The notes under the pieces are model-generated. The model did no database searches and was not told the DNA's origin. It saw nothing but the letters and a program-made list of their open reading frames with translations. A program made the position numbers and the translations under genes. Below, piece after piece: positions 4,243 through 44,998 of a DNA stretch of 64,000 nt. The DNA comes from Mixia osmundae IAM 14324. Lineage: Eukaryota > Basidiomycota > Mixiomycetes > Mixiales > Mixiaceae. The stretch lies in the NCBI RefSeq assembly GCF_000708205.1, contig NW_014575555.1, positions 494,689 to 558,688 on the forward strand. The letters run 5' to 3'. Numbering within the stretch: position 1 is the first letter of the stretch; every line of letters begins with the position of its first letter.

Positions 4243-5855
4243 ATGAGCGTGCGCCAGGTCCACCGAGCCTTGTCTCGCTCTGCCGCCAGACAATCTGCTC
4301 CTCTTCCGACGACAGCAGCTCGCAGACTGCCTCGACAGCCAGCACAAGCTCGCACTCATGCAACTGCTCTCGAGCCTGAACGCGAGCCCGCAAGAGGGCT
4401 CTTCGAGGACGAAAAGGCCATCTTGCTCGCAACAAAAGGCAGTGCAAGTGATGCGCCTCTGAGGAAACGATGGCAGCGGGCAGAGATACAGGAGATCTAC
4501 GACTCGCCGCTCATGGAGCTCATCTTTCGCTCCGTGCGCTCTCGGCATCCTACCTGGCCGTACGTGGGCTCACGACCGCGCTTGCAGGCCACAGTACATC
4601 GCCAGCATCACGATCCATCGAAGATCCAGCTGTGCACGCTGCTCAATATCAAGTTTGTCGCGTTCGTACACTGCCAAGTGATGTCCAGCTGATGCGCGGC
4701 TTGGAGGACCGGTGGGTGCACCGAAGACTGCTCCTACTGCTCGCAATCGTCCAAACACAAGACTGGCCTCAAAGCGACCAAGTTGCTCGACCTCGAGCCT
4801 GTACTCATGCAAGTCACCCACCATGCCCAACGCGTCCGCCCACTCATGCCTTGCACACAGCGAGGCGCGAAAAGCCAAGGCAAACGGCTCGACTCGCTTC
4901 TGCATGGGCGCCGCATGGAGAGATCTTCACGGGCGGAAATCAGGCTTCAACAGGATTCTCGACATGGTCAGTGAGATCAGAGGAATGGGAATGGAAGTCT
5001 GTACGACTCTGGGCATGCTTGACAAAGATCAAGCACGCCGGCTGAAAGAAGCCGGTCTGACGGCTTACAACCACAATCTAGACACCTCGAGGGAATACTA
5101 CCCAGAAGTGAGCTTGTCGGTAGTAGGCCCGCTGGCGTTGTTGACATTGACCGGGACCAGGTCATCACAACGCGGTCATACGACGAGCGACTGGCTACAA
5201 TCGAGAATGTGCGCGAGGCGGGCATCTCAGTCTGTTCGGGCGGCATTATCGGTCTGGGCGAGAAAAAGGAGGATCGCGTGGGTCTCATCTGGGAAATGAG
5301 CAGGTCCGGATATCCTGCTTCAGCTGCTGATGTGGCTGACATGGCTACCAATGACAGGTTGCCGGAGCCGCCGGAGAGCTTTCCAGTCAATGCACTCGTT
5401 CCTATCGAAGGCACGCCACTGGGAGGCAACGAGGTAAGTCGTCTGTTCCTTCGAAATCGATCAAGCTGACGATGACTGATTGATTCTGCAGCAAGTCAAG
5501 ATTCATGATATGCTCAGGACGATCGCAACAGCGCGACTGGTGCTACCGACGTAAGCTTACGTTTTCCTTCGGTAGCGGTCATCTGACAAGGTCGAGCAGC
5601 TCGATCATCCGGCTTGCAGCAGGTCGGATTACGTACACCGAAGCAGAGCAAGCGATGTGCTTCATGGCGGGTGCCAATGCCATCTTTACAGGCGAACGTA
5701 TGCTCACCACGCCCACTTCTGGCTGGGATGAAGACGGTGCCATGCTCGAGCGATGGGGCATGCGCGGATTGGGCTCATTCGAAAGTCAGCGCATGCAGCC
5801 TCATGCTGCTCAGCCTATCGCATCTGCCACGCCTCCTGTAGAGGCTGTTGTGTAG
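4243..5855 (+). CDS. BIO2: biotin synthase (mitochondrial radical SAM enzyme)
   Basis: Eight exons (4243-4533, 4588-4652, 4707-4812, 4865-5107, 5161-5303, 5358-5433, 5492-5550, 5600-5855) give 412 residues. The enzyme inserts sulfur into dethiobiotin to make biotin, using a radical-SAM 4Fe-4S cluster and a 2Fe-2S cluster. The radical-SAM motif CTEDCSYC follows GG after the second intron. Downstream family blocks include [17 protein letters not shown] and [11 protein letters not shown]. The first about 45 residues are Arg/Ala/Ser-rich with few acidic residues, a likely mitochondrial targeting peptide, which supports the start at 4243. The third intron needs an acceptor ending GCGAG for the frame to continue. 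A functional copy suggests that at least the last step of biotin synthesis occurs in this fungus. Confidence 0.95.
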
Positions 5856-33500: not shown

Positions 33501-33705
33501 TTGCGCAGAAGATCATTTACTTCTGCAGTCGTCTGAGGCGAGCTGCTAAGCCATCGTCGTTGCAATATCCAGTCGGCGTCGAGACCCAAATTGGCGGCTG
33601 TGGCGAGCGCACTGCGAGCTTTGCATGAGCTCTGTTCGATCTGTCTCGAGGTACTTCATACAGCCCCCAATCCTTGCGCTCGAGTGCCTCGTGCAAGGAA
33701 TCCAT
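30598..33705 (-). CDS. SEC39: SEC39-domain protein (Dsl1 tethering complex)
   Basis: Four exons (33705-33662, 33611-31699, 31651-31492, 31441-30598) encode 986 residues. The protein is an all-helical Sec39/NBAS domain: ALATAANLGLDADWILQRRW at the first junction, VQRAIISAGLEAT, LLDLVDCLPEYADPSAYADM, and the C-terminal PEIRREREFIEATSRL block. Sec39 joins Dsl1 and Tip20 at the ER to tether COPI vesicles for Golgi-to-ER return. The 44-nt first exon is linked by a 49-nt intron whose removal restores the helix pattern. The last about 90 residues are Ser/Ala-rich and less conserved. Stop codons of this gene and the RING-CH gene face each other 100 bases apart. Confidence 0.85.
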
Positions 33706-34034
33706 CAGTACGACATCGGAGGGTACGACTACGTCGTCGCGGCTGTCGACGTGGCTGTCGACGTGGCTGTCACGCGACAGCCACGTCGTCGGCTTTCGGC
33801 GAACTCAGCAGGTCGCCGATGTGCGCTAGTTTCAGCTTGTTGTTTCTTTCCTTCCCTCGATGCAGAGCGGAAGAGAGATTGTGGGTATACTTTCTCTGCA
33901 ATGCGCGAGGTTGGCCTAGTACACGGCGTAGGAAAGGTCTATACAAATGGCAAGAGCGAGTAACTAGTAAACCGCGAGCATGCTTATTCGATAGCGTGCT
34001 GCGACGCTTAGCCCGAGCAAGCGCGGCAGGCAAT
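33706..34034. other. intergenic, SEC39 promoter and elongase 3' region
   Basis: This 329-base gap lies between the SEC39 start and the elongase stop, both on the minus strand. It holds a strong hairpin (listed separately) and a duplicated 12-mer, but no supported gene. Confidence 0.5.
33747..33788. repeat. tandem 12-mer plus 13-bp perfect inverted repeat
   Basis: The 12-base unit GTCGACGTGGCT occurs twice in a row. The second copy forms the left arm (33759-33771, cgacgtggctgtc) of a perfect 13-bp inverted repeat with a 4-base loop (acgc) and right arm 33776-33788. It starts 42 bases upstream of the SEC39 start codon, so it could be a protein-binding site, a 5' UTR hairpin, or DNA prone to cruciform extrusion. 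Confidence 0.8.
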
Positions 34035-35527
34035 CTATTGGCGCTTCTTGGCCGAGGTCGAGCCGTTACCATTGCCGTTGGCAGTCGTCTCAACGTTTGG
34101 GCCTTCGCAATTCGAGGCAACTTGTCTTGCCGCAATGGATGCAGCTCTGTCAACACCGGCAGCATAGTCAGCGTGCTTGGCTCGACGAAGTGATCAGTAC
34201 GAGCATACCGTGCGCGGCCACCCTTGGCACTCTTCTTGTATGTCTGGCGATAGAACGCGATGAACCTGCCGAGTAAGGCACTGCATCAGCTCATGCTGCG
34301 CTCAGACCGGGCGCGACGAACAAGAAGAGATAGCTCGTCAGGAGGCCGCAGCCGAAGAGAGCAGCACTCTCTGCACCGTTGCAGTCGCCCTGGCTGGGAA
34401 GTGCTTTAGGCGCATAGGTCGTCGCAAAATGGTTGTATGTGCCATAGTAGACGATGAACAGGTCAACCACGCTGTACCAAGAGCACCGACATCAGCAGCT
34501 ATTTCCCGTCAGTCTTGCAAGAGCTTGCAATTGAGTGATCTGGCTGCGCAAGTTGTGGCAGCACATCAGCGACAGGCATCGATTGTCAGCGATCGATAGA
34601 CATACCCCATCGTCAGGTATTTTTTCCACCAGATCTTGAAGCCAGCCGTCGACGCAAGGTAGTAGTAATCTGGCAGCATGGCACAGCTTGATCAGTATCC
34701 ACATAGAGGTGATCAGACTGTCAGACTGACACATAAAGGTATGAATGAGCAGATTGATGCTGATCACGACCCAAGACGGCGAAGTGCGGCCTTCGAGCTG
34801 GGTGTAGCAGAGCACGGCCGTCGCAGAATGATGGAAGACGTGCAGGAACTGTAGTGGCTTCTTCTTGGCGACTAGGAAGAGCGTATCGATGAATTCTGTC
34901 GGACGAGCAGCTGCCGGCGTTAGCCAACAATGGTCCGCTCGCATATGGACATCATGACGCGCCTACGTATTTGAAGACATAGCTGTACGGTAGCTCGATC
35001 AGCTCTAGCGTCAGACCAGACAGCGAAGACACACTTGATGATGTAAAGTGTCTCGAGGCGACTTGTCCAGCCGGCAGGTGAGCAGTAGGCATGGAACAAT
35101 CCACCTTGGCGGATGATGGGCGCAACCTGCGATCACGCCAACGAACGATCAGCAAAGCAAGCATGACAGGAGAGGAGCGCGGCGAGCCTCTTCTGCCATG
35201 AGGACAAAGACGATGAAGCTGCCGACGGTCAAGATGGTGTTATGGAGCATGAAGAGGCCTTTCAACTCTGTGACGCGACGCAGCTCGACCGTTCAGCGCA
35301 TGCTGTTCACGCGTGCTTGTACAGCACGCTCGCGAGTACGCACTGAGCGGTTTACGGTTCGCCATGATCTGCTGTCCGAGCCACAGCAAGGAGAGGTAGC
35401 TGGCTACTGCTACCGTGACTTGGGGCACAGTCGACAGAGGTGACCGCCCTGGCGTCCATGTCTGTAGGCTCTTGTGCTGCTTGACCGCCTCCGGCACCAG
35501 CTGGCTGACAATCTCGAATATAGCCAT
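34035..35527 (-). CDS. ELO-family fatty-acid elongase
   Basis: Ten exons (35527-35344, 35267-35188, 35126-35035, 34982-34963, 34895-34731, 34669-34606, 34543-34529, 34471-34313, 34265-34209, 34146-34035) encode 315 residues. ELO proteins catalyse the condensation step of very-long-chain fatty-acid elongation in the ER. Motifs are [18 protein letters not shown], the histidine box [10 protein letters not shown], and [16 protein letters not shown]. Several hydrophobic helices are present. The C-terminus is KKRQ, a KKXX-type ER retrieval signal. Two internal exons are tiny (20 and 15 nt). Four of nine introns need GC donors to keep frame across conserved motifs (gctcgc, gcgcgt, gcaagc, gcccgg). 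The total length is exactly 316 codons, which supports the model. Confidence 0.88.
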
Positions 35528-35797: not shown

Positions 35798-38700
35798 ATG
35801 GAGGACAGGCATGGCGTCCTTGCGGCCTGTCTAGACAAGCTACGCAGCTCAAAGGTGTGCTCTACCGGCTTCGATGAGCCTGACTGACGATTGACGACCA
35901 GGCGACCGATAGAAGCGCCGCAACAGATCATTTGCGCGAGATCTTCAGTCGACCTTCAGCCTGGCGAGCTCTGGAGAAGCAACGAACGGGCCATTTAGAT
36001 GTGCTGCAAGCCATCTTTGCCTCTGTCGTCGCCGCGCGTAATGCGTACCTCCGAGGCACCAATGATCGCACAAAGGATGCCGAGCGCAAGCGACTGGCCA
36101 GCTCTGCCAGTGTCTTGCGATGGTTCGTCGGCCAGTGCGTCGACGGACTCCAGAAGAAGACGCTCAAAGCCGTCTGGGCCCATCTCCTGCAGATGCTCGT
36201 CGCCAACCGAAAGATCTTTGCGCCTGTCGCACTCGAGTACCTGCGTACCCTCAATTTGCTGCTCGCACACGATCCTCATCTGCAGCACATGGACGAGGCA
36301 ACATGGACGCGAGCAGTAGGAGTGTGTTTCTGTGGCATGGCAGGTCAGCCCGTCATCGATTTGGCCGATATGATCGACTCGTCCTCCAACGCCAAGGATC
36401 GCGACGATTCTGATATTGCTATGTCAGATCGCGAGACGGATGCCCATCCTCGCGCAGATGCTTCCTCATCATCAGCGCGGCAGATGCCGTCACATGTTCG
36501 TGCGCGTAATGTCAGTAGCGGCAATGCGGCCAACACCTTGGAGAGCATAGAATACATGACTTGTGTTGACCACTTGTTCCGATCACAACTTGCTCCGCTT
36601 CTGACATATGGCTCCATTTTGCTCAAATTCTTTGCTTCATTCTTTCAGCTCCACCCAACGGAAAGTAGTGCGCATCTGCCAGCCATTTGCGCGCTCAACA
36701 GACTTTTCGATTCTGCCTGGCTCAATTCACAAACGCTCATGTATGAAGCTACAGTGACGCTGTGGTCACCATTGATAACGTTCTGGAATTCGAAACACCT
36801 TCTGGTCAGGGAACAAGTTGCCTTGGCCTGTCGGCGCCTTTTGTTGATCCTCACATTGCCACTGGCGGGCCAAACGCCCATCGAAAATCGCGAGGCTCTC
36901 ATTCGCTCGCTGTATGATCGCATCGTGCCTACAGATAGTACAGAGCTTCGTTGGCGCACAGAGCCACTGTTGCTCGAGTCTATACTGCTTGCACCGCCTC
37001 CCCTCGATCGACATGCGCCCTACGCTACCGCGTCATTTGGCGCTGGGCAAGGCTTCGACCCTATACAGGCCGTTTCCTGGGTCTCGCTACAAGTCTCGGC
37101 AGACATCCTGGCTTCCCTATCGAAGATGCGATCGCAAGCTCTGTCGAGCGACACGCACGCACTCGAGAGTGCCGTGCGCGCAGGCAAACGCCCTAGAGTA
37201 CGCTTGTCAATAAATTCCAGTAGCCAGCTGATGCCATTTGCATCGCAAGCTTGAAACTCCTGTCAGTTCTCTATGCAACGACGTCAGGAATACCAGCATA
37301 CCGATAAGCGACCGCCTTTTGCGCCTACAGATACTCGTCGTCTTCGCCGTGCGTCATGGCGCTCACCTGTCCGATGAGCTCAAGCAGACCTTGCTCGAGG
37401 ACCTCCTTCAACTCTCGAACAATCCATTCGACCATGCTATTCAGTCTTGGGCCCTGGTGGGCCTCGCTGCGCTTGCATCGCAATGCCAGCAGCCGCGAAT
37501 CGAGTGGTGGTCTGGCGTCTGGACCAGCTCATGTCGCCGCATATCCGATCGGGCCACCGGAAGAGCGGCTGCACATCTTTGTTCGAATCTGATGGATATA
37601 GGCTTACCCCAGACGCTACTCGTGACCGGTATAGAGGCGGCGTTTAGCGATCTTGACGTGCGGGGTCCAGCTTTTCCTTCTGATGCCATCGTCCGCTGGT
37701 TCGCGACTTGCCTCGTGTGCGCAGAGAACAGTCAACGTCTGGCAGAACGATCGCTACCTGACAAGATCTCTGCGTGGCTCGCAAACGTCTGGACGCCATT
37801 TGGTCAAACGGTGTCTTCGGGATCAATCCTCGGCAAGCGATCTAGATCAGACTTTGTGTCTAGCAGCGCGCTGCTTTCCCTGCTCTCCAAAGCGTGCAGC
37901 CTGCCGTGGCGCTATTGGGGCTCAGACCGCTTCCTATTACCTGCATGTCCGACGACAAATTGTCTCTTGGCGGACGAGAAAGTATCGCCAATCTCGGACC
38001 TCTTCTACTTGCACAAAGTCAGCTCCAGATCCGTTCTGACACGCGGCACAAGCATAAGCGAGCCCGCAATCATGCTCGAACGTCCGGCGACATCGAATGA
38101 ACGCCGTTTGCTGGCTGGCTTGCAGCGAACGCTGGACTCTCAGGTGGACTTGCACGAGTCGCACGAGCACTGGTTCGAGCTGACCGCGTGTCAGCTACGC
38201 GAACGAGCTGAGCTAGCGAGCGTACTTCTCTGCTTCGCCGGCTCGCTGGAGCAAGCTCGCATCAAAGTGGACCCAAGCGTCATCAGATCAGCCTGCCGTG
38301 CTCTTGCGCTTGTTCTCAGGCTCGCAAATCAAACGAAATGGCTCCCCCGCGAAAGAGCCGAATTGTACCTCGCATTCTCTCCCTTGCTTGTGACGACAAG
38401 CCTGTCGTCTGACCCGCTATACGAGGTCTGTGTACGCGTCGGTCCCGGCTCAGGCGTTAGCTCACAGCCTGATCCTGAGCCCGGGCCGAAGTTGCGTAAC
38501 GAAGAGAGGGAGGCCGTTCTGCAACGGCTCTGGGCGCACAAGGATGTCAGAGCGGTGATGACGAGTATGAGCACTGGCCTGGCCTCTCTGATGGAGCCAT
38601 TGGCTATGTCAAGACAACAAGAGCTCGACGACTTCGACGGACCCACTATCGCTGTCAATCGTACTATCATCGATAGCCTCTTGATGCCCGGAGCCGAGCA

Positions 38701-41700
38701 TGCGCTGCAAGCTTGTATATCAATCCTCGTCCAGATCGATCTGACCCGCGATCTGCTCGCTAGCCAGCGCCCCGGCGCTGCAACCTTGTCACGCGCCGTG
38801 GCAATCTGTGTCAAATTATCCGATGTGCGAGCCCTCGATATCGGCAACGAGATCCTAGACGCTCTGCAGTGTGGCCTAGCAGGCCTGACAGAAGCTGAGT
38901 GGCAGGTCCTACTGGAGCACCTTGCAAACGATATGATCACAAGCTATGCGTTGGCGAGGAGCGAAAAGTGTCAGCTACTGTTGCTACGACTGCTTGAACA
39001 CAGCTCGCAAATCTGGGCAGCCGACCTCAGTGCTCAAAGCACACTCGTCAGCTGCGCGCGCGAGGCCTACATTTGGTTTCAAAATAACTGTGTTCATCAA
39101 AAGATATATTCCTGGCGTATACGTCTTGGCCTAGTCCTCGTCATCGACAGCTTCGATCATATCAAGGAGCTCAATACGCTGTGGGATTCGTATGATACGC
39201 AAGATCAGGTCATCTTGCCCTCTACGACCCTTTCGCGCATGTTGGAGGACCCGGATAGCCGCGTCAGCTTTCGCGTCAATACAGCCTGCTGCAGACATCT
39301 CGAGTACGCACGCGCTCGGGGTGGTGAAGTGACAAAGATTCTTTTCGACCACTGTGCACAGTTGGGACCCATCCATGCGCCCGTCGAAGGTGCTGCGCTG
39401 CGTTGTGTGTACCTCTGTCAGGCCATGATCATCAGCCAGCGCTCCCGACGTTATGCCTATGACCTTCTCATCGAAGTCGCAGCGAGAGCGCCTGCATTAC
39501 AAGACATTCTCGTAGCATTATCTCAAGCTCTGTCCGACCGGCTCGGATTTCCCACAATATCCGCGCTTTATCTGCACTACGCCGGCCCGATCATGTCGCA
39601 GTGGATCCGCCTCAAATATCTAGACTTGCGGATTCCTGATCGAGTCTGTGGATTCCAGAATCATAGAGATCGTACGGCTGCCGAGATTGATTGCGTTGCT
39701 GTGCCGTTACTGGTAAATGACATGGTCGATGCTTTACGGATAAAATGCGATGCCCTCCAGCTACATTTGCCCTCAATCATCCGCACACACTTGCCTGCGG
39801 TGATAGCGAACAAAATAGCTTTGGCCACTGTCAACACAGCAGAAGGCGTTGACCCTTTCCCTGCGGTGTTGAGAGAGATCACAGGCCTGATCGAACAGTC
39901 GGACAGCAGCACGATGACTTTTGAGCAATTCACACGCGCGTACCTCGATCAAGTCCTCGTCCATACAGTAATGCTTCTATACGAAGAAACTGCTAGCGCA
40001 TCACCAGACGGTCCATTGGGATCGTGGCAGCAGAATCCACAAGCGATGCAGACCTATGCGGACTTATTGTCTGAAGTCAGGGACTTCAGCATTTGCACGA
40101 AGGCGCCACCTCCGTGGTTCAACGCCGAATGCGTCTATTCCGTCCTCGTCTGGTTTGTGAAATGCTACGGCTCTGGCGAGAATACAGCAGTACTGTATAG
40201 TAGCGTGCAAGTGTTGCTACATCATGTGCACCAAATGCCCTTTATTGACGATCAACGACGAACACTTTTCATGCTCGCTGCATTGATCTCGCTGAACGAG
40301 CCTGACATCAGCAGTCTTGGTCTGCTTCGCATCCTGATGCATTATCTTACGCATCTCTTGGCTAGACCTGCCATAAGCGATATCGTCTGGAGCATGCTTG
40401 CATGGACAATTGAGCGATACGTTCGACTTGGCCACGCGCATGACGGCCAGCAGTTGCTTGGTTTCGCCGATCTTGTTGCACTAGCAGCTCACTACGCGTT
40501 GCAGCTCACTAATTGCGAGGAGCGTATGCCAGTGGCAATTGGCTCATCTGCGCTTCAGTGGCTCGAGCAATTGGTTGTCGAGCTCTTCAAATCGTCCTCG
40601 CTAGAGCTCGCCCGGCAAAGCGTCTTCGCAGCTGCCTTATGGCCGCACGAGTGTTCGTCAATTCCTCGCATCGACCTTGAAGGCATAGAAGAGATGCTCG
40701 ATAGCGCTTTTCCCTGGAGTAATTTGCGACATTTGCTCCGTGCGCTTGCTGCGCTCGACTTGTCACCGGACTCAGAAGAGGCTGTGCGGCTAGGGGCGGT
40801 CACCTTCCGAGTCCTGCGTGGCTGTAAAGACGGTAGCGCCATGACCAAGGCCGATGCCGAGTCGTTGACCGCGCTGGTCTCGATTGCCGAGACGCACTTC
40901 TGCACTGGAACCTTACTTAATTCTTGCGCGCAGCGCGTTCATCCTCCATATGCCGCTCCTCTGCTCGGCAACGAAACGACTCAGGCAATCTGCGTCGGAT
41001 TGTTAGGCCAATGCCTTCTCTCGAGCGATCTCCTGCTCGTCAACACCGCCGTAGCTGCATTGCGGCGGGTCTTTGTCACCGTCGCGCTCGATACGCGTAA
41101 AGCCTCGGCAGAGGATATCCATGGCGTTGGCTTCGACCTGCTGGAGCTCGCTCGCGATAGTCTGAAACGGTCTTGGGAATTAGCCTCCACGGTGTCCCGC
41201 GGCCCGGGTCTCGAGGCGCTCATCACAGAAAGCTGGATTACAAAGGCTCGAGACGCCAACGAATGGATTGCGAACCTATCTGTGCTTGTCGGGCAGCAAG
41301 CGAGTACAGTGGCCCCAATGTACGCCCAGCTACAACCTTGCCTCCTGCACGATACTGCGTTCGCCCGATCTAGCCTGCCGATTCTCGTGACCGTATTGCT
41401 GCAAAGCAAGGAAAATTCGACACAGGCGAGGATGTACTTGTCGGAGCACTTTGTGCGTGTGATCGCCTCGCCATGCTCAGACATCGAGTCGCTTGCGGTC
41501 ATCATTGATATTGTTCTGCACCTACGCAAGACAGATCTGCCTGGCAAGAGAAAGCGAGAAGACGGTATTAAACTACTTCTACCATTCATCGAGCTCGCGA
41601 AAGCGGCGATACGTTGTCACCTTGCTTCAGCTGCGTTACTCTTTCTCGAACTTGCACAAGACCACGATGAAGACAAAGCAGCGTGTGGACTGCAGGCGCC

Positions 41701-44700
41701 GCAAGTGCGCACGCTCATGTGTTCAGTGTCCGAGCAGATCGGCGAACCAGATGGCTTTTACGGCATCGCACCTGGTGAAATTCAAGAAACCTTAGCGAGC
41801 CGCTACGCGCATGAAGGAGCTTGGAGCAAAGCTTTTCAACTCCACAGCTCGCTTTTCGAGGCTAGATCGGGCACCTCGACCGCAGATCTGGATTTGCTGC
41901 CCGTCGGCAATTCGCTCAAATCCTGGGGCTTCAAGCATCTCGCAAGTCAAGTGGGCGCTCTCAGACGTGCAGGGGACCTTGCCGACTTAGATCTAGCCTG
42001 GCGCACTGATCACTGGGACATACCTGTCGAACAGACCACAACAACCAGTGCAAGGATCTATCGTGCTCTTCGTGACGCTCATTGCTCCGCTAATCGCGCG
42101 CTGGCCATCGACAGAGCCAGCAATGGCCTCGTCGAAGAGTTGCGCTCGATTCTCCACATATTGCAGCGATCTGATCATATCGCCGGGAGCAAACTTGCTG
42201 CTCTGATCACGCTGTCGGATATCACACGATGGCAGCAAGCTCAGCACGCGCGCAGCGTTGACGAATCTAAAGCCGAGATTACAGACATGAATCGCCTACC
42301 GACGACAATGTAAGACAGCATGAAGGGGATCTGCGCGAGCTGATCGGATTCCCACACAGATTCGAGGTCAATGAGCCTGTTGTCGCGGCCAGGCTGAGCC
42401 TTTTGCAAGCCGAGCGGAACGCTGAGATGCTCAATCAGATTGGCGACGCTTTGACTCCGGTCGCGCGTGACAATGCTATTCGCGCTCAGCAGCTATGTCT
42501 CGCCTTATCACGCGATGCACGCATGAATGGTCAGCAGCAGCTCGCGCTCAATATGGTCAACGTCGCACAATCACTCGGGTCACTCGTTGACACAGATGAT
42601 GATGGCGCCAAGGTCGAGCTTTCGCACACGCTCTGGGAGCTTGGAGAGCATGGCTTGGCACGAGACATCGTCAGTCGGCTAATCTCAAGATCGCAAGGCT
42701 GTACGAAGGCTGATCTGTTAGCTACTATGGTACGTTCGCAGGATTCCTCAGCAACTTTGCTGATGCTTTGCAACGACAGGGCGGCTGGACGGCTGCTGCG
42801 CGCCTCATGCCACCTTCAGAGATTGCTGATCGGTACTTTGCACCAGCAGTGGCACTTGCGCGTAGCAGCAAGCTATCAGACGACCGTCTGGGTGAGGTAG
42901 TCTATCAGTTTGCCAGCTATGCCGTGCAACAGTATAAGCAATTGGCCAAGGAAGATCTGGCCATGAAGAGACTTAGTGTGCTGCGAGCTCAAAAACAGCA
43001 CGAGATCAAGGCGCTTGACGCACAGCTGCGCCACTCGAGTACGCAAAGTGCCGAGCGGCACAGGCTGCAAACCTCAAAAGATGACGCAACAAAGGTCATC
43101 CGACAAGACAGAGACCGGCTCGAGAAATTCGAGGCTGCGCGCTCGTCGTTTCTCAAGCATGCCATCATCATGCTCTTGCAGACTCTAGCATGCACCGATC
43201 AGCATCCTGATGCGATCTCGCGCCTCATTTCGATCTGGATGGAGCATCAACAGGATGACGAAGTCAATCGTCTGGTACAGCAGCACCTCAACAGCGTGCC
43301 ATCGGCCAAGTTCGTGCCATTGTCGCATCAGATCTCAGCTCGTGTCGCGCGCTTCACAGGCTCGACGCTTTGCCGGCAGATCCTGAGCGGACTTGTCGAG
43401 CGCATGGCGCTGGACCATCCCTTCCACGTAGTCTACCAGCTCTTGTCGCTGCGCAAGGCATCAGATTCTGCTTTCCCCGAGAACAATCTTGCATCGACAC
43501 AGGCACCGCGAGCAGACGCTGCAGGGGAGATTATCGAGCGAATCAAGCGAGCGCCCGCCCTGCGTCCGAAAGTTGCTGCTCTCGAGGCGCTCTGCGAAGC
43601 CTACATCGAATGGGCCAGCTTTGACCTTGATCGCTTACCGGACTACAAACGTAGCAAGAAGGACAGCACGCTGAAGATGCCGCAAATCAAGCTGCTCCGC
43701 CTGCGCAGTCAGACTCATGCTATTCCAGTATCGACTGTTGCTTTGCCGATGGATCCGACGTGTCGCTACGATGCAGACAGCTTACCGTGTATCTATCAGT
43801 ACGAAAGCACATTCAAGATCGTTGGAGGCGTCAATCGTCCTAAGTTGAGTATCTGCATCGACTCCATGGGCGGCACACACAAGCAGCTAGCAAGTCTATG
43901 GCTACTGTCACATTACAGCGCTGATGAGGCACATGCAGTTCAAGCCCGGTGACGATGTCAGACAAGACGCTGTCATGGAGCAGGTCTTCGAAGTTGCGAA
44001 CGGTCTGCTCCGTCGCGACAAGGCTACGTTCAAGCGTAACCTGCGTGTGAGAACCTACAGGGTCATTCCTTTGACTGCCGATACCGGACTACTCGAGTTT
44101 GCAAAAGACACTATGCCAATCATGGCATGGCTGCCCGAGGCTCACGCTCGCTATCATCCGAAGGACGCACGCTACGAGACAGCCCGGCAGAAGTTTGCAG
44201 AAGCGCGACAAGACTTTGAAGCCCAGCGGGCAGTCTGGAAGGAGCTCTACGCGGGTCGCTGGCACCCCGTACTACGTCATTTCTTTCGAGAGGAACAGAA
44301 AGAGCCGAGCTTGTGGCATGAAATGCGACTCAACTACGGCAGAAGTCTCGCGACTAATTCGATCATCGGTGATCTACTAGGCATCGGCGACCGGCATTGC
44401 TCCAATATTCTCATCGACTCTGTGCGAGGCGAGCTAGTACACATCGATTTCGGTATCGTCTTTGAAGCTGTATGTGCCCGCCTATGTTGCACAGTCGAGC
44501 TTACGCGCAGACACACAGGGAACGCGGCTGCCTATTCCAGAGACAGTACCGTTCAGACTGACGCCCGACATGATCGACGGACTCGGCATGACGGGCGTCG
44601 AGGGCGTCTTCAGGCGATGTTCAGAAGAGACCTTGCGCGTCATGCGGCGAGGCGCTGTGGATGTTATGACGATCCTGGAGGTCTTCAAATACGATCCTCT

Positions 44701-44998
44701 CCAGAAATGGCACGTATTTCATACTTTGCATACTTGACGACACTGAGAGGATCGCAGGACTCTGAGTGCCGGCAAGATCCGCAAAGCACAAGGTACTCAG
44801 CTCAGCGAGGCAGACGCCCAGGATCTTGCAGATGGCTCGGGCGACGTGCCGACAGACGCGCATCGCGCTATCGACCAAGTGAGCGCTAAACTCAACTCAA
44901 CGCTCAGCGTGGAGTACCAGGTCAACGACCTCATCCAGCAAGCGCAGAATCCTGACAATCTTTGCCGAATCTTCTGCGGATGGGCGCCTTGGATGTGA
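35798..44998 (+). CDS. TEL1: TEL1/ATM-type PI3K-like protein kinase
   Basis: Eight exons (35798-35854, 35902-37197, 37250-42309, 42360-42729, 42780-43889, 43939-44469, 44519-44709, 44758-44998) total 2,952 codons, so 2,951 residues, similar to Tel1/ATM. The N-terminal TAN-like helix motif is [23 protein letters not shown]-like repeats fill exons 2-3, and a FAT region runs about residues 2150-2500. The kinase domain has [29 protein letters not shown], the catalytic [11 protein letters not shown], the metal-binding HIDFG, and the ATM-type [12 protein letters not shown]. The FATC end is [14 protein letters not shown]. Tel1 senses double-strand breaks with Mre11 and maintains telomeres. Introns 5 (43890) and 7 (44710) appear to have GC donors and, when removed, rejoin the RQ(L)..DD-RQD and YDPLQKWTLS blocks precisely. 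Confidence 0.95.

Follow-up and report, generated by a model that had tools for sequence, protein, structure and literature searches.

The elongase locus

The window, that is, the whole stretch of 64,000 nt of Mixia osmundae DNA analysed here (G+C 56%), carries on its minus strand, from 35527 to 34035, a gene for a fatty-acid elongase of the ELO (GNS1/SUR4) family, divided into ten exons by nine introns (Table 1). The coding sequence of 939 nt comprises 313 codons including the stop, and hence 312 residues; an earlier note on this DNA had also counted ten exons, and its sum of exactly 316 codons (315 residues) has to be corrected accordingly. Profile PF01151 matches the translation at 236.4 bits (cut-off 27) over profile positions 3-239 of 242, a nearly full-length domain, and the histidine box HxxHH, a motif of ELO elongases, is present in the sequence LHVFHHS. 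The best homologues belong to Rhodotorula, Meredithblackwellia and related Pucciniomycotina and are 60-63% identical, none among the best 120 of 628 protein database matches exceeding 63%, while ELOVL7 (6y7f, 51 bits) was the only relative with a solved structure found. The reading frame is intact and conserved. Judged by its sequence, this is an ordinary ELO gene, for whose product a condensing activity on long-chain acyl-CoA is predicted; compared with other ELO/GNS1-SUR4 elongases (PF01151) the protein shows nothing odd, and only the donor dinucleotides of the gene are uncommon.

The gene adjoins another with a Sec39 domain, near whose start three copies of the 12-bp word GACAGCCACGTC (two in tandem, one inverted) lie within window positions 33748-33787, where 0.02 would be expected by chance. 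Near the 5′ end of the same Sec39-domain gene, the gene finder described below placed a TT-AG intron (33543-33589, minus strand), which is probably a sign of a wrong start or boundary.

Table 1. Features of the window and of other contigs discussed in the text. Elongase introns are listed in 5′ to 3′ order; a slash marks the exon-intron boundary, and positions without a contig label are those of the window.
Feature	Position	Strand	Length	Donor	Phase	Evidence
ELO-family elongase gene, 10 exons	34035..35527	-	312 aa + stop			gene model, PF01151, homologues, HVFHH
Elongase intron 1	35268..35343	-	76 nt	TCA/GTGCGT	1	top-scoring option in variant scoring
Elongase intron 2, GC-AG	35127..35187	-	61 nt	GAG/GCTCGC	0	model, variant scoring, finder
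Elongase intron 3	34983..35034	-	52 nt	CAA/GTGTGT	2	model, variant scoring, finder
Elongase exon 4, micro-exon, YVFKYV region	34963..34982	-	20 nt			gene model
Elongase intron 4, GC-AG	34896..34962	-	67 nt	TAG/GCGCGT	1	model, variant scoring, finder (donor)
Elongase intron 5	34670..34730	-	61 nt	TGT/GTCAGT	1	model, variant scoring, finder
Elongase intron 6	34544..34605	-	62 nt	GGG/GTATGT	2	model, variant scoring, finder
Elongase exon 7, micro-exon, QITQF	34529..34543	-	15 nt			gene model, variant scoring
Elongase intron 7, GC-AG	34472..34528	-	57 nt	ATT/GCAAGC	2	model, variant scoring, finder
Elongase intron 8, GT-AG	34266..34321	-	56 nt	CTT/GTTCGT	2	model, Pfam, variant scoring, finder
Elongase intron 9	34147..34208	-	62 nt	ACG/GTATGC	2	model, finder; exact ends uncertain
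GC-AG intron, biotin synthase gene (4243-5855)	4809..4860	+		CAT/GCAAGT		finder; ungapped against biotin synthase 1r30 (1/1)
GC-AG intron, PI3K-related kinase gene (35798-44998)	43890..43938	+		CTA/GCAAGT		finder prediction
Second GC-AG intron, PI3K-related kinase gene	44710..44757	+		ATG/GCACGT		finder prediction
Gly/Ala/Ser-rich paralogue	C1:123854 (200-kb block 23854)	+		GC		
Gly/Ala/Ser-rich paralogue	C1:130547 (200-kb block 30547)	-		GC		
Gly/Ala/Ser-rich paralogue	C1:153051 (200-kb block 53051)	+		GC		
U1 snRNA copy	C4:1086420	+				pattern, Rfam
U1 snRNA copy	C4:1110674	-				pattern, Rfam

A CTRAN branch-site motif lies upstream of all nine elongase acceptors, those of GC and GT introns alike, by a judgement made by eye and not by statistics. 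The U12-type donor consensus is RTATCC, and none of the nine donors matches it. Several boundaries deserve comment. Intron 1 falls outside the gene finder's model of the elongase because the finder starts the gene at a later ATG. At the boundary of exon 3, a 30-nt alternative that breaks the frame was discarded in favour of the 52-nt intron 3. Intron 4 has two in-frame acceptors 15 nt apart, of which the homologue profile prefers 34896 (439.5 bits) over 34911 (430.1 bits), the re-estimated ab initio finder picking the latter. The exact ends of intron 9 are uncertain because the C-terminal tail of the elongase is poorly conserved; there the model is outscored by 0.2-2.7 bits by several variants, whose donors are GT, GC or other dinucleotides.

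Tests of the elongase donors

The donors were tested against a profile of 114 homologues, namely the 120 listed ones minus those outside 250-330 aa, with which 1195 frame-keeping variants of the gene were scored, each altering one intron or skipping one exon; GT-AG alternatives were sought with boundary offsets of up to 75 nt and intron lengths of 38-180. The full model, with three GC donors, reaches 439.5 bits. For intron 2 the best GT-AG alternative scores 415.1 bits, 24 bits below the GC reading, and for intron 4 it scores 393.1 bits, 46 bits below, while for intron 7 no GT-AG alternative within the searched range keeps the frame. The re-estimated finder, donor-agnostic and independent of homology, likewise puts GC at 35187, 34962 and 34528.

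The earlier note had assigned GC-AG to four of the nine introns and held that GT alternatives break the frame or remove conserved residues. Profile score, frame and finder bear this out for the donors at 35187, 34962 and 34528, that is, for introns 2, 4 and 7. Intron 8 is the exception: a GTTCGT donor at 34321 with the identical acceptor is better than the proposed GCCCGG at 34312 in the homologue profile (439.5 versus 431.8 bits) and in the Pfam match (236.4 versus 227.4 bits), and the finder too takes 34321. With GC at 34312 thus not confirmed, the gene has three GC introns of nine, not four.

GC donors in the genome

The genome (13,508,641 bases in 19 contigs) was surveyed with a custom gene finder that combines codon, donor, branch, acceptor and length models and was trained on GT introns only. 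The sample of 264 kb comprised the window and 200 kb of contig C1, and all introns counted in it are predicted; genes scoring 15 or less were dropped from the first runs, and those scoring 12 or less from the re-estimated, decoy and second-sample runs. Under a prior of 0.9 for GT, with the other 15 dinucleotides equal, the finder returned 218 GT, 11 GC and 1 TT introns (n = 230), and under a prior of 0.7 it returned 217 GT, 13 GC and 4 others (n = 234). When all 16 dinucleotides were made equal, there were 173 GT, 15 GC and 25 introns spread over the other 14 dinucleotides, with a maximum of 4 each (n = 213). A run restricted to GT and GC (0.9 and 0.1) gave 18 GC introns among 238 and no gene above the cut over the elongase. 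Re-estimated over six rounds, the finder arrived at 249 GT, 30 GC, 1 TT and 1 CC (n = 281; 95% interval for GC 7.3-14.9%), with 6 GC among the 83 introns predicted in the window alone and 27 of 273 once the elongase is left out. The rate is soft because the GC counts climb with the prior (11, 13, 18, 30). As decoys, each of the 14 other dinucleotides was given the final GC prior, which yielded 3-13 introns (mean 7.3) versus the 30 for GC; subtraction of the decoy mean leaves a GC share of approximately 8%. No shift-equivalent GT-AG reading within 12 nt was found for any of the 30 GC introns.

For a second sample, family searches supplied chaperonin-family and small-GTPase loci, which were picked blind to their donors. 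Twenty-two places were taken, and the priors gave 5% to GC and another 5% divided among the 14 other dinucleotides. Here the finder predicted 37 GT and 7 GC introns and none with another donor (n = 44; 95% interval for GC 6.6-30%) in 12 of the 22 loci, the 10 loci without a gene above the cut lying outside the 44 introns, which may bias the share. By the 264-kb survey, GC donors stand at about 5-11% of the predicted introns of this genome; both samples lie clearly above the fungal mean of 1.009%. As an observation on the assembly itself, equal matches pair C8:672013 with C17:48873 and C8:697653 with C17:74513 at a constant offset of 623140, which suggests that a block of 25 kb or more is duplicated between these two contigs, be it a segmental duplication or assembly redundancy.

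Individual GC junctions were checked by alignment in genes selected for carrying GC calls and for looking conserved. Ran/Gsp1, in which three of eight introns are GC-AG, aligns without gaps over 213 residues to yeast Gsp1, all three junctions lying in ungapped blocks. The same holds for both junctions of HSP60, both of adenosine kinase, and the single ones of RFC, CCT-eta and biotin synthase; two of the three in ARP6 lie in ungapped blocks and the third adjoins a three-residue gap. With the elongase included, 15 of 16 alignment-checked GC junctions hold, or 15 of 17 examined if a casein-kinase-like gene on C1 is counted. In the latter, which we take to be casein kinase I, with the motif GSGSFGDIYLG, the finder's GC intron is false: a GT intron of 144 nt, beyond the finder's length limit of 140 nt, fits better and brings the motif back. 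Further GC introns predicted by the finder lie in CCT-gamma, a DEAD-box helicase, a presumed glutathione-transferase-like gene and other genes, and in the PI3K-related kinase gene, whose C-terminal part bears PF00454 and FATC domains. Three paralogues of 238 codons, rich in Gly, Ala and Ser, have a signal-like N-terminus and, near residue 25, a GC donor in common, which their first introns have kept while being only 65-70% alike.

The several GC donors in one gene had been called striking. Against a background of 1.009%, three or more in nine introns are indeed improbable (P about 8e-5), but the genome's own rate of about 5-11% makes the elongase's three of nine unremarkable, the corresponding probabilities being 0.007 at 4.8%, 0.03 at 8% and 0.063 at 10.7%. 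Nor is the gene a clear outlier, because it was chosen for its GC donors and because ARP6 and Ran likewise have three, in a sample with 88 predicted genes that contain introns.

Donor context and U1 snRNA

A stronger flanking consensus at GC donors is the usual compensation for the mismatch, AG/GCAAGT being the strongly pairing form. In the 264-kb sample, complementarity to U1 outside position +2 averages 6.27 of 8 for GC versus 5.29 of 8 for GT introns, with G at -1 in 77% versus 46% and A at +3 in 70% versus 41%, a difference that may in part be a detection effect of the finder's selection. Median lengths are 56 nt for GC and 52 nt for GT introns, with the same type of branch site and acceptor. 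The GC donors of the elongase are not especially strong, having 4, 6 and 5 of 8 U1 matches in introns 2, 4 and 7, and by the same count its GT introns 1, 5 and 8 come out level with intron 2.

The 5′ end of the U1 gene is canonical, AUACUUACCU, the gene beginning AUACUUACCUUG. It was found by pattern (4 genome matches versus 1 in the control) and is present in two copies with equal Rfam matches, in opposite orientation and approximately 24 kb apart. Its Rfam score of 32.8 bits lies below the gathering threshold of 69.5, the fold is U1-like by eye with a shuffle z-score of only -1.59, and at its default settings Rfam gave no U1 match anywhere in the genome. An altered U1 5′ end compensating for the +2 mismatch was also considered. 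The corresponding pattern, ACTTGCCT-N40-70-TTGCAC, has 9 genome matches versus 0 in the reversed control; the candidate was rejected, since the 8 of 9 exact-pattern matches taken as loci gave no Rfam U1 up to E = 1. One of these compensating-pattern loci contains a weak, below-threshold Rfam match to the snoRNA snR41 (33.8 bits, E 0.018, at L033:389-482).

Interpretation of the GC donors

The computations support three GC donors in the elongase, a raised rate in the genome, a canonical U1 5′ end and stronger donor flanks across the sample. We consider it highly probable that the locus is an ordinary ELO gene in a Pucciniomycotina genome that has GC at about 5-11% of its introns, these being of U2 type and tolerated by the major spliceosome. 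Mechanistically, introns 2, 4 and 7 of the elongase would be excised by the major spliceosome as U2-type introns, with a CTRAN branch site and an AG acceptor like those of GT introns. Canonical U1 may tolerate the mismatch at +2 because the remaining donor positions pair well enough, and the fungus would have drifted to, or would permit, an uncommonly high proportion of GC donors. We infer constitutive splicing of these introns, and a rate that stems from tolerance in the common machinery, not from regulation. More tentatively, and with the odds somewhat against it, recognition of +2 may be relaxed throughout the lineage, GC serving as donor in 8-15% of introns, one of the highest shares in any fungus, the U1 5′ end unchanged, and the change residing in a protein or in proofreading that depends on U5/U6.

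The best surviving alternative, although an improbable one, is the earlier suggestion that the elongase undergoes regulated or alternative splicing, signalled by its GC donors, such as skipping of exon 7 or retention of a weak intron. Exon 7, at 15 nt, can be skipped in frame, but the skip deletes the conserved QITQF and costs 24 bits (415.5 versus 439.5). The donor of intron 2, GCTCGC, is weak (4 of 8), yet GT introns 1, 5 and 8 equal it in weakness, and the acceptor at 34911 (430.1 bits) would be an in-frame option for intron 4. No support for regulation was seen in these analyses, and housekeeping genes carry GC donors too.

It is less probable still that the gene model is wrong and that every elongase intron is GT-AG with other boundaries. 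GT-AG did prove right at intron 8 and in the casein-kinase-like gene; for introns 2 and 4, however, all tested GT-AG alternatives are at least 24 bits worse, none was found for intron 7, and 0 of 30 survey GC introns can be reread as GT-AG by an equivalent shift within 12 nt. Least credible of all is a conversion of GT into GC by sequencing or assembly errors or in a pseudogene, for although the assembly contains some N bases, the GC excess extends across the whole sample and into separately fetched genes, the three Gly/Ala/Ser-rich paralogues retain GC despite differing intron bodies, and the elongase frame is conserved and intact.

The elongase gene by itself is not remarkable. If the favoured reading of tolerated U2-type GC introns is true, a GC-donor share 5-10 times the usual one would make this genome a compact natural case of tolerance to a +2 mismatch while the U1 5′ end stays normal. 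In the Mixia genome, genes would probably be cut short or overlooked by gene finders that expect GT.

Comparison with other genomes

No report of GC-AG introns in Mixia was found in the titles and abstract openings of the literature searched. For Mixia osmundae, a published study generated 42.7 million RNA-seq reads (PMC3376729). GC-AG is described as a common exception in fungal surveys (PMC5832005), and for Ustilago maydis 29 of 1111 introns are given as non-canonical (PMC2219887). Over 130 fungal genomes, GC-AG introns average 1.009% (PMC7072748), and the estimated Mixia rate of about 5-11% stands well apart from that mean. The same study lists approximately 6.67% of "major" non-canonical sites for Meyerozyma guilliermondii (PMC7072748), so there is some precedent for a large fraction among fungi. 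Relative to fungal U2-type GC-AG introns, those of Mixia are alike in the GC donor, the AG acceptor and the type of branch site, and the Mixia sample is richer in exonic AG, +3A and +5G, perhaps in part through detection bias.

Among algae, GC-AG shares of 39.6% in Aureococcus anophagefferens, 22.2% in Micromonas pusilla and 7.7% in Chlorella are given (PMC3033335). The two richest of these have canonical U1 5′ ends, and their tolerance is noted as a puzzle (PMC3033335). Mixia resembles Aureococcus anophagefferens and Micromonas pusilla in that GC donors are in excess across the genome although the U1 5′ end is unaltered, but it differs from them in its lower rate, in being a fungus, and in a moderate G+C content of 56% (in the window) as opposed to 66-70% (PMC3033335).
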